Assembly (NCBI RefSeq): GCF_023101345.1
Contig: NZ_CP095848.1
Coordinates: 3,560,001-3,624,000 of the forward strand
Length of the DNA stretch: 64,000 nucleotides
Direction: 5' to 3'
Source: Hymenobacter sublimis
GTDB taxonomy: Bacteria > Bacteroidota > Bacteroidia > Cytophagales > Hymenobacteraceae
A model generated the notes under the pieces. It was given only the letters and a program-made list of their open reading frames with translations, did not search any database and was not told the DNA's origin. Below, in pieces: positions 58,385 through 63,196 of the stretch (the stretch's first letter is position 1; the number at the start of each line of letters is the position of its first letter). A program made the translations under genes and the position numbers.

Positions 58385-59395
58385 TCAACCATTATTCAGG
58401 ACAGTAATAAACTTGCGAAAGAAGGGGTCAGTCGCTGGATTATAGGAGTTTATGCCACCCCAGTAATTTCGTCCCATAACCTTTAACACGTTTTCATAAT
58501 GCCAGCGTAGCTTCTTCGCACGCTGAACACTTGTAGACCCTAACTCGCGCTCTATCCTAGCCTTCCAAGGATGATTGCTCCCCATAACGTTTTCATTACG
58601 CTGAATCAGCTTGGATATGTAATGCTCACCTACCAGCTTGTCACTCTTGCTTGTGTTACAGTAGCTGTGGGACAATACTAGATTCCAGATTTCATCGTGT
58701 AGTAGCACTTGACGGGGCAAAACATGGTCAATATGGACGTCTCCGTCGGGTATAGGTTCGCCACAATAAAAGCAGGTGTTTCCCTGGTAACCCTCTAAAA
58801 AAGGAATATTGGACGTCAGATTTGTACGCTGATAGCCATTGACCAAGTAAATGTCCCGCGTATCATTTGATAGTAAAGAATGGTCGCGCGTCATTTGGAA
58901 TGCTCCTTCTAACAAATTCCACCTGCTGTCCAATTGATTGCGAAATGCCGTCACTTGGGTGGACTGTACAAGTGTTAGCAAGCTGTCGGTTAAAGTCAGG
59001 GACTTGCCGTGCCGGAAGTGGTAAAATTTATTCCGCGCCAGTTCCTTGTTATTGACAATTGTTTGAAAGCGTGGTATGACGTCGGAGAAAGACGTAGCTG
59101 CTACTTCAACGATGGCTTGGCTATACTCCAAACTGCCCTGCTGATACCGACGCACAATCCGCTCCATAATGGTTAAGCGTGTCGGATTACCTTGCTGAGG
59201 CAATACTGTAGGACCTGTTAGCCGTGAGGTGTAGTTGTCGAAGTAGGCCCTTGCCAACACTTCCCACGGCACCACTTCACCCCCCTGCTCTCCTAAGTCC
59301 AGCAACGTTTTACCTAACGCCATTTTGTAGGTAGCGCTATTTAGGCCATACAGCACAATAGCGGACCAATAGTCTTCGTCTGTGAACGTGGTCAA
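58385..59395 (-). CDS. HNH endonuclease
   Basis: A 336-residue protein; the start is TTG at 59395 (no ATG before residue 25). The C-terminal third contains an HNH nuclease fold: CFYCGEPI (Cys208, Cys211), VHIDHVLPRQ (His221, Asp223, His224), EIWNLVLSHSYCNTSKSDK (Asn238, Cys246). The N-terminal ~200 residues are helical and unassigned. It is likely a DNA-cutting effector. It lies upstream of the HD/Hsp90-type ATPase on the same strand, across a 610-base AT-rich gap. Confidence 0.85.
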   Translation of the reverse strand: MTTFTDEDYWSAIVLYGLNSATYKMALGKTLLDLGEQGGEVVPWEVLARAYFDNYTSRLTGPTVLPQQGNPTRLTIMERIVRRYQQGSLEYSQAIVEVAATSFSDVIPRFQTIVNNKELARNKFYHFRHGKSLTLTDSLLTLVQSTQVTAFRNQLDSRWNLLEGAFQMTRDHSLLSNDTRDIYLVNGYQRTNLTSNIPFLEGYQGNTCFYCGEPIPDGDVHIDHVLPRQVLLHDEIWNLVLSHSYCNTSKSDKLVGEHYISKLIQRNENVMGSNHPWKARIERELGSTSVQRAKKLRWHYENVLKVMGRNYWGGINSYNPATDPFFRKFITVLNNG

Positions 59396-59940: not shown

Positions 59941-61266
59941 CTAGGCTACTCTACTCCACAAAGGACCGTCCATGTTGATGCGCCAGAGTTCTTCCAAACT
60001 GGTTGTATAAGCCGGGGAGCGCATTTGCTTTTTGCCCTCCCATTCTCCCCCCTTGCGGCCCTTGTAGCCTTGGGCCACTGCAAAACCAACCATACCTGAA
60101 CCGTAGCGCTCATTCAGCTTGTCTAAGTCGGCCATCAACTTTGCCCTTTGTGCTGACTGGATTGTAGGCTCAAACAAGCTCAATTGTTGCTGCCCTGCGC
60201 TTTCCAAGCCGTCGAATATAACTCCGGCCTTCTTGTACTGTGTGTTGGGCTTCCAGATACGCTTCAACACCGTGCGGGCATAGCGAAGTAACTCTGCCGT
60301 GTCACTGGTGGCTACGGGCAGGTGCAAGGTAGCGGAGAAAGAATGCGGGGGCGGCTCCGTTCCAAACCGGTTCTTGTTCAGGAACACAGTCAGGACGTTT
60401 ACAGCGGAATGCTGCCGTCGAAGCTTCTCTGCGGCTCTGGTCGTGTAGGCCGTAACGGCTCCCAATACGTCCGGATAGGCCGATAGTGTTTGCCCAAAGG
60501 TTCGGGTGCAGGCTATGCTTTGCCGGTGCAGGGTCCCGTCCTCACTCGGAGCCATTTCCAGACAGGGGTAACCTTGCAGCTCTCGTACCAGCCTTGCTCC
60601 TACTACCCCGCCCAAGTGCTTTCTGGCCCATGCCTCCGATACGCGGGCTAGTGCTGTCGCCGTGGTTAACCCATGAGCATGAAGCTTGGTAGCATACTGG
60701 TGGCCTATTCCCCACACGTCCTCCACACCCACTTGCTCCAAGGCCCACCAGCGCTTTTCCTCCGAATCCAGATACAGCACGCCATCTAGCTCCGGCAGCT
60801 TCTTGGCTAGTCGGTTTGCCAGCTTTGCGAGTGTTTTGGTCGGGGCAATACCAATGCAGGTGGGAATATGAGTCCACTGCCGGAGTTCACGCCGGATGCG
60901 TCGCCCGTATGCTTCCAAGCCGCCCAACCACTTTTCCATGCCCGATAGGTTAAGAAAAGCTTCGTCAATGGAATAGACTTCCACTTCGGGCGCTACGTCG
61001 GCTAGATACCCCATGACCCGGCGCGACATGTCTCCATACAAGGCATAGTTGGAAGAAAACACGCGGGCACCCTGCTTTTCCAGCGTAGCCTTGATTTTGA
61101 AGTATGGCTCCCCCATTGGTATACCCAATGCCTTTGCCTCGGCGGAGCGGGAAATAATGCATCCGTCGTTATTGGAAAGCACTACCACGGGTATTCCTTC
61201 CAATTGTGGCTGAAAGGCCCGCTCACAACTCACGTAGAAGTTGTTGCAGTCAACTAACGCGAACAT
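59941..61266 (-). CDS. umuC: Y-family DNA polymerase V subunit UmuC
   Basis: A 441-residue translesion polymerase. It begins MFALVDCNNFYVSCERAFQP with catalytic Asp6; the YSIDEAFL motif supplies Asp101 and Glu102; CIGIAPTKTLAKLANRLAKK and the helix-hairpin-helix VEDVWGIG follow. The C-terminal little finger is present and the length is near the E. coli value (422). It overlaps umuD by 17 bases. It is expected to act with the cleaved UmuD dimer in error-prone replication after DNA damage. Confidence 0.95.
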   Translation of the reverse strand: MFALVDCNNFYVSCERAFQPQLEGIPVVVLSNNDGCIISRSAEAKALGIPMGEPYFKIKATLEKQGARVFSSNYALYGDMSRRVMGYLADVAPEVEVYSIDEAFLNLSGMEKWLGGLEAYGRRIRRELRQWTHIPTCIGIAPTKTLAKLANRLAKKLPELDGVLYLDSEEKRWWALEQVGVEDVWGIGHQYATKLHAHGLTTATALARVSEAWARKHLGGVVGARLVRELQGYPCLEMAPSEDGTLHRQSIACTRTFGQTLSAYPDVLGAVTAYTTRAAEKLRRQHSAVNVLTVFLNKNRFGTEPPPHSFSATLHLPVATSDTAELLRYARTVLKRIWKPNTQYKKAGVIFDGLESAGQQQLSLFEPTIQSAQRAKLMADLDKLNERYGSGMVGFAVAQGYKGRKGGEWEGKKQMRSPAYTTSLEELWRINMDGPLWSRVA

Positions 61267-61720
61267 AGCGGGAGAGCTTACCGGGGCGGGTTTCCGTCAG
61301 AACGTGCGTCACTACTCCCCAACAGTCGAATAGGTCAGGTTCTCCGGCTAGGGGTATGGAAGGATATGCCGGGTTATCGGGTACCAGCCACCACGAATCA
61401 GGTCCTCGTTGTATCAGTCGCTTAACCGTGTGCTGCCCTTCTACCACGGCAATGATTATATCGTCGTGCCGGGGGGTTAAGCGGCAATCAACAGCTAGTA
61501 AAGCGCCGTCTCGAATGCCGGATTCCCCGCCTGTCATACTGTGCCCTTCTACCTGTACCAAGTAGGTAGCTTGTGGATGGGAAAGCAGCAAGGCATTTAA
61601 ATCCAGCTTTACTCCCTGATGGTCCTCTGCCGGGGAAGGGAAGCCTGCCGGAACGCGGGATTGGAAGAAAGGAAGCAGTAAAGGCTTGCGTAAAACATTT
61701 AAAACAAAGACTCGACTCAT
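61250..61720 (-). CDS. umuD: UmuD-like S24 peptidase
   Basis: A 156-residue self-cleaving protein. The predicted cleavage site is Ala25-Gly26 in RVPAGFPSPAEDH; the catalytic Ser61 is in VEGHSMTGG and Lys100 in GQHTVKRL, the Ser-Lys dyad of LexA/UmuD. The start at 61720 (MSRVFVLNVL) was preferred; the frame is open to 61747. There is no DNA-binding domain, so it is UmuD rather than LexA. It is divergent from a nuclease gene across a long palindrome. Confidence 0.93.
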   Translation of the reverse strand: MSRVFVLNVLRKPLLLPFFQSRVPAGFPSPAEDHQGVKLDLNALLLSHPQATYLVQVEGHSMTGGESGIRDGALLAVDCRLTPRHDDIIIAVVEGQHTVKRLIQRGPDSWWLVPDNPAYPSIPLAGEPDLFDCWGVVTHVLTETRPGKLSRYVRVS

Positions 61721-61759
61721 GGCAGCAGCACAATAGGTTTGCTGCAATGTTACGCAATG

Positions 61760-61794
61760 CCAATTAAATTAGTTAAATCAGCTAATTTAATTGG
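61760..61794. promoter_or_regulatory. 35-bp inverted repeat between umuD and the nuclease gene, probable operator
   Basis: CCAATTAAATTAG (61760-61772) and CTAATTTAATTGG (61782-61794) are perfect 13-bp inverted arms with a 9-bp spacer. It is placed 40 bases upstream of umuD and about 60 bases upstream of the nuclease start. The size and symmetry suggest a repressor binding site, possibly for SOS-type control. A near -7 box (TAACATTG, 61752-61745) for umuD lies next to it. Confidence 0.6.
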
Positions 61795-61852
61795 CTATCG
61801 AGTTGCTTGTTCCAGTAAATTCCCATCTTCGTTATCCAATACTTGGTTTACC

Positions 61853-62710
61853 ATGCGCCTATTCAATTACAGTTCGTCGTTTCTTGTTGCAGGTTTACTT
61901 CTCACCGCTTGTTCCGGTGAAGAGACTACCCCCTCTCCCACTTCCACGCCGCCCGCTGATGGGCATTTGGTTATGGGCAATCCTAGTGGTGCAGTAGCGG
62001 ATATCAATTCTCCGACAAACTACTTGCTTACCAAGTAACAGTATATCCTCTCCTACCACCGGGACAAAGGCATTCCAAACTGGGTGAGTTGGCATCTAGC
62101 TTCCTCATGGCTCGGCTCGGCTCCCCGCTAAGACGATTTTCGGGCAGATGCCTCTCTTCCGGCCGGGTGGTATCAGGTGCAGGCATCTAGTTACAGCGGT
62201 TCAGGATTCGACCGGGGCCACAATTGCCCTTCGGCTGATCGTACTTCCACCGTTGCGGACAATTCGGCCACGTTCTTAATGACCAACATGATACCGCAAG
62301 CTCCCCGCAATAATCAGCAGACATGGGCCAACTTGGAGGACTACTGCCGAGCCCTCGTTGGAGCCGGGAATGAGCTGTACGTTATCATGGGTCAGTACGG
62401 CATTGGTGGTACTGGTTCAAATGGAGCCATGACGACAATTGACAATGGCCGTGTGACCGTACCGAAGCGGATATGGAAGGTCATTGTCGTGCTTCCCGAA
62501 GGCACAAACGACACTAGCCGGGTCAACGCTTCTACCCGCATTATTGCTGTAGATACCCCCAATGACAACTCCCTTAATACGGCTTGGGGAGGCTACCGCA
62601 CCACAGTTGACGCTATTGAATCTGCCACCGGATATGACTTGCTCTCCGCTGTATCTACGTCGGTGCAAAGTGTAGTAGAAACGCGGGTGGATACAGGCCC
62701 CACGCAGTAG
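61853..62710 (+). pseudogene. Secreted DNA/RNA non-specific endonuclease with two in-frame stop codons
   Basis: A continuous frame of 286 codons from ATG 61853, broken only by TAA at 62036-62038 and 62129-62131. The N-terminus is a lipoprotein signal (SSSFLVAGLLLTAC). The nuclease domain (NUC, ββα-metal family) has HLVMGNPSGA before the first stop, SYHRDKGIPNWVSWHL between the stops, and GSGFDRGHNCPSADRT with the catalytic His after them, then FLMTNMIPQAPRNNQQTWANLE. Apart from the two TAA codons, which replace single residues, no frameshift is seen, so inactivation is recent or the stops are bypassed. Confidence 0.85.
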
Positions 62711-62806: not shown

Positions 62807-63196
62807 ATGAATAATGAGGGTCAGTTTCCGCCGCCTCTTCATAATATTTTGCCACTTCGCTTCCATTCATGGGTCGCCTGCTATGACAGCATTCCTGAAA
62901 ATCAGCGTCAAGAGTCGCACTTCAGATTCTATCAAGGAGTAACTCAAAAGCAATTTGCACGGCTATATGGTTACCCGCAGCCACCACATTTAGTTGGGAG
63001 GGTCGAGCACATAATCGAGAGAGAATGGTTGTTGGCTCGAATTGGAGAGGAACTGCTGCCAGCAAGATTGACCGTATCAGAATGGCAGCAGATACAAAAG
63101 GCTCTCCGAAGTACCCACGCTCTTACCACGTCAGAACTACTTCGCATCGGCAATGAAGCCTTTTCACGCTTGTTAAAGGTATTGATACAGAGCTAG
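62807..63196 (+). CDS. Hypothetical protein
   Basis: A 129-residue soluble protein of mixed composition from ATG 62807. The N-terminal half is Pro/His/aromatic-rich (FPPPLHNILPLRFHSWVACYD); the C-terminal half looks helical (EREWLLARIGEELLPARLTVSEWQQIQKAL). No domain is recognised. It lies between the interrupted nuclease gene and the small minus-strand genes in the accessory region. Confidence 0.5.
   Translation: MNNEGQFPPPLHNILPLRFHSWVACYDSIPENQRQESHFRFYQGVTQKQFARLYGYPQPPHLVGRVEHIIEREWLLARIGEELLPARLTVSEWQQIQKALRSTHALTTSELLRIGNEAFSRLLKVLIQS

Follow-up and report, generated by a model that had tools for sequence, protein, structure and literature searches.

Nucleases of the NucA class belong to the Endonuclease_NS family (PF01223), the beta-beta-alpha-metal nucleases carrying a DRGH motif. 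The nearest solved proteins to the gene copy described here are the PDB entries 1zm8 (E 2e-84) and 2o3b (E 1.5e-83), both listed as 'Nuclease', which we take to be NucA from Anabaena/Nostoc; with such solved relatives the fold of the copy is evident. For Arg93 of this enzyme, an action on the scissile phosphate has been hypothesised (PMC4220975). A second point of comparison is offered by a survey of bacterial genes, which described in-frame stop codons that are accompanied by no other decay and persist only briefly, and which argued for prokaryotic genes that readthrough of such stops is frequent over short spans of evolution (PMC7918605).

The window analysed here, a stretch of 64,000 nucleotides from Hymenobacter sublimis (contig NZ_CP095848.1, positions 3,560,001 to 3,624,000), carries at 61853-62710 on the plus strand a frame of 286 codons, i.e. 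285 residues and a terminal TAG, which translates without any frameshift and contains two internal TAA codons, at positions 62 and 93. The original prediction of a nuclease frame intact save for these two codons was borne out by the translation and by the family profile, and both TAAs are present in the genome copy as well. With both stops masked, residues 55-269 of the frame match Endonuclease_NS continuously (profile positions 15-222 of 223, E 1.1e-50) at 172.8 bits, compared to a curated cut-off of 23. Like Anabaena NucA, with which it aligns over its full length (residues 28-280), it displays the DRGH region as well as the Arg-Gln-Asp motif at the site of the second stop. The DRGH motif itself (codons 120-123, 62210-62221) is intact and lies 3' of both stops, and the elements NNQQTW and NLEDY provide the Asn/Glu pair downstream of it. 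Unlike NucA, however, the window copy has its two TAA codons upstream of DRGH, so that a full-length product is impossible by standard decoding and no open frame yields the whole Endonuclease_NS domain. Judged by its sequence, the window copy is thus a broken NucA-type member of Endonuclease_NS and, very probably, a pseudogene that arose very recently, by two hits, from a redundant gene for a nuclease lipoprotein whose family is present in multiple copies in Hymenobacter.

Inspection of the translation revealed a lipoprotein-type signal peptide, MRLFNYSSSFLVAGLLLTAC (61853-61912, plus strand), with a lipobox; a Cys is also found at this place in most homologues. Given this lipobox, the enzyme would be made as a lipoprotein and not be freely secreted, which corrects the original prediction in this respect. 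Long matches to the frame in plasmid records are only roughly 65-70% identical.

Among intact homologues, the one from H. daecheongensis (L007/L039) displays the highest identity (79-81% at the protein level) and shares a clade with the window copy and those of H. sp. YC55 and H. persicinus (support 99). In contrast to the window copy it is uninterrupted, reading CCC (Pro) where the first stop falls and CAG (Gln) where the second does; moreover, no umuC was matched in its genome at E 1e-60, unlike the window with its neighbouring umuDC genes. The genes of the survey mentioned above resemble the window copy in having nonsense codons without frameshift, signs of purifying selection and a short life (PMC7918605), whereas the window copy contains two stops, which no second genome compared shares.

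The two stop codons against homologues

For a comparison of the two sites, 100 distinct homologous sequences were aligned, 98 of which have a residue at codon 93. The second TAA (62129-62131) comes immediately after Arg92, an invariant residue aligned with Arg93 of Anabaena NucA, and takes the place of a Gln found in 97 of these 98 homologues (CAG in 72, CAA in 25), just as had been expected for the family. At the first TAA (codon 62, 62036-62038), homologues carry Pro (61), Ser (20) or Thr (12) and never Gln. A stop at codon 62 or 93 was found in no homologue of the aligned set. The proposal that both stops arose from CAA by one base change hence agrees with the alignment at codon 93 and is unsupported at codon 62. 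Here, the three nearest homologues use CCC, CCG and CCC for Pro, which implies at least two base changes between those codons and TAA; a stop reached in a single step would presuppose a precursor like TCA (Ser). To judge from these codons, the Pro of the nearest homologues would not fit one instantaneous event.

Translation of the window copy is expected to end after 61 residues, ahead of any catalytic residue, which would leave no active nuclease. An alternative is that the frame gives separate short products, for instance a 61-residue lipopeptide and a 177-residue nuclease fragment initiated at the GTG at 62177. The corresponding ORF (62177-62710, plus strand) is indeed open after the second stop, keeps DRGH and scores 129 bits against Endonuclease_NS, but the fragment would lack both the signal peptide and the invariant Arg92. 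Moreover, no family was matched in a Pfam search by the 61- and 30-residue pieces delimited by the stops, and aligned homologues show no split at these positions, which makes separate products very improbable.

A pseudogene is commonly recognised by a lesion disabling a frame whose homologues are intact, and in the present case two nonsense codons are found together with intact homologues in the same genome and across the genus. The genome (4.78 Mb, three contigs, 99.99% complete) contains five Endonuclease_NS genes, of which only the window copy has internal stops; the four intact paralogues probably make its loss tolerable through redundancy. A search of 120 genomes of the genus detected the family in 119, usually with several copies per genome. 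Four further Hymenobacter homologues, namely those of H. caeli (L057) and H. mucosus (L070/G119) and two copies of genome G012, are each interrupted by a single nonsense codon in a frame that is intact otherwise, at positions differing from one another and from those in the window gene. The two G012 copies (C1:1021394-1022218 and C1:1049684-1050517) lie 28 kb apart and carry one differing nonsense codon each, a TGA at an Arg codon in one and a TAG at a Trp codon in the other. Two nonsense changes without a frameshift, considered unusual in the original prediction, are less so in the light of these four sister-species genes, even though each has one stop only; at the same time, the apparent scarcity of frameshifts means little, as the lower scores of frameshifted copies leave these under-represented in the homologue set. 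The different nonsense sites in sister species point to independent decay and argue against programmed readthrough.

Constraint on the frame and decoding of TAA

Codon changes private to the window copy, defined by comparison with one relative and one outgroup as codons at which only the window copy differs, and thus counted over its whole branch, comprise 8-21 amino-acid changes versus 39-65 silent ones, depending on the pair compared. Additionally, the window copy deviates at none of 102 columns conserved to at least 95%. Taken together, these values indicate that strong purifying selection kept acting on the frame until not long ago. A sign of relaxed constraint is not visible, though the counts cover the whole branch rather than just the time since the stops arose, and this absence of visible relaxation fits only a very recent inactivation. 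Under neutral point mutation, about 22 missense changes would be expected per nonsense change, 7.7 of them at conserved columns, and the chance of a second stop arising before any missense change at a conserved column, given the first stop, amounts to about 0.11. Two stops without other damage are therefore mildly improbable, which points to a very recent loss, and this value constitutes the main residual support for either readthrough or an error in the sequence.

If one or both TAA codons were mistakes of sequencing or assembly in a gene that is in fact intact, a frame free of any other lesion or conserved-column change and the strong constraint on its branch would be readily accounted for. 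Such an error is nevertheless unlikely, considering the completeness and the small number of contigs of the genome given above. All 52 Response_reg matches and the four paralogues are stop-free, so that in-frame errors must be infrequent, and two substitution errors in one gene, each of them yielding TAA, would hardly be expected. The same stop-free Response_reg matches (internal stops in 0 of 52) show that TAA is not reassigned in this genome, and stop-codon reassignment was rejected on these grounds.

Low-level ribosomal readthrough of both TAA codons, by which some nuclease would still be made, perhaps as a regulated or leaky switch, has in its favour the purifying selection across the whole frame as well as the argument of the survey cited above on short-lived stops (PMC7918605). 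Programmed readthrough would, however, be expected to leave stops conserved in relatives, while the aligned homologues are stop-free at both sites, with Pro, Ser or Thr at the first and Gln at the second, and those copies in relatives that do contain a stop have only one, at another codon. A search with a covariance model found no stop anticodon among 43 tRNAs, a list that is incomplete since an Ile tRNA was missed, and folding of the sequence 3' of each stop against shuffles identified no stimulating RNA structure (z 0.17 and 0.21). TAA is recognised by both release factors, RF1 and RF2. Furthermore, two serial TAA codons would multiply two small efficiencies, and readthrough of this kind is consequently given very little credence. 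Both readthrough and three separate products had been put forward as options, and neither was upheld, given the location of the stops in relatives and the failure to find a suppressor tRNA or a stimulating structure. The third option, a fresh pseudogene, is well supported by the two stops, the intact paralogues, the recent constraint and the unrelated single stops of relatives. We infer that neither stop is an artefact, that both arose recently and that they abolished the function of the gene.

The umuDC neighbourhood

The nuclease frame adjoins an error-prone polymerase operon, as had been noted originally. Both genes of this operon are located on the minus strand and thus divergent from the nuclease frame: a umuD-like Peptidase_S24 gene (61250-61747), likely starting at an ATG near 61720, and a umuC-like gene of DNA polymerase V with the domains IMS, IMS_C and DUF4113 (59941-61266). 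Downstream of umuC, again on the minus strand, an HNH endonuclease-domain protein (HNH_4, HNH) is encoded at 58385-59395, while a 129-residue ORF (62807-63196, plus strand) without Pfam match lies directly downstream of the nuclease.

In Bacteroidetes, the SOS box reads CTAA-N5-TTAG (PMC8565304). Two near matches with one mismatch each (61760-61772 and 61782-61794) are located between umuD and the nuclease frame, and both are contained in a perfect 14-nt inverted repeat spanning 61759-61795. An exact SOS box is present upstream of most umuD genes in related loci. As a general trait of the nuclease genes, the SOS box was rejected, with an exact box in one of 99 upstream regions versus 0.42 expected. 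The window nuclease may be co-regulated by SOS. It is also conceivable that the nuclease, in spite of its two TAA codons, has been kept under selection beside a divergent, SOS-controlled umuDC operon and is expressed solely at times of impaired termination, e.g. under stress, with leaky readthrough limiting a potentially harmful enzyme, yet this idea is very improbable.

Across 37 genomes of the genus compared, 11 of 51 umuC genes have an Endonuclease_NS gene no more than 6 kb away, versus about 0.4 expected at random placement, with shared ancestry making any probability indicative only. Both divergent and co-directional arrangements occur. Besides the window (59941-62710), the linkage is seen in G033 C8, G021 C6, G003 C1, G030 C42 and G007 C4, and further at L063, L066, L103, L106 and L081. 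Internal stops initially listed for many umuC genes were not sustained upon re-reading of the loci, where only those in the matches L141 (G014) and L144 (G013) proved to lie truly inside the gene; of the others, two sit at the C-terminus and all remaining ones fall beyond the aligned part. L141 and L144 are each interrupted by one internal stop, in both at roughly the same place, right before an ALxQ motif and where the window protein has Trp, and look intact otherwise.

Meaning for the nuclease family

As a fresh pseudogene, the window copy has little import beyond genome annotation. It does provide a clean example of a gene copy shortly after inactivation, in a multi-copy family with recurring single nonsense lesions. 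If readthrough were true, in-frame stops without decay need not mean lost function. The association of umuDC with nuclease genes across the genus may be more useful, as it suggests that SOS mutagenesis is linked to an exported nuclease, which is testable.
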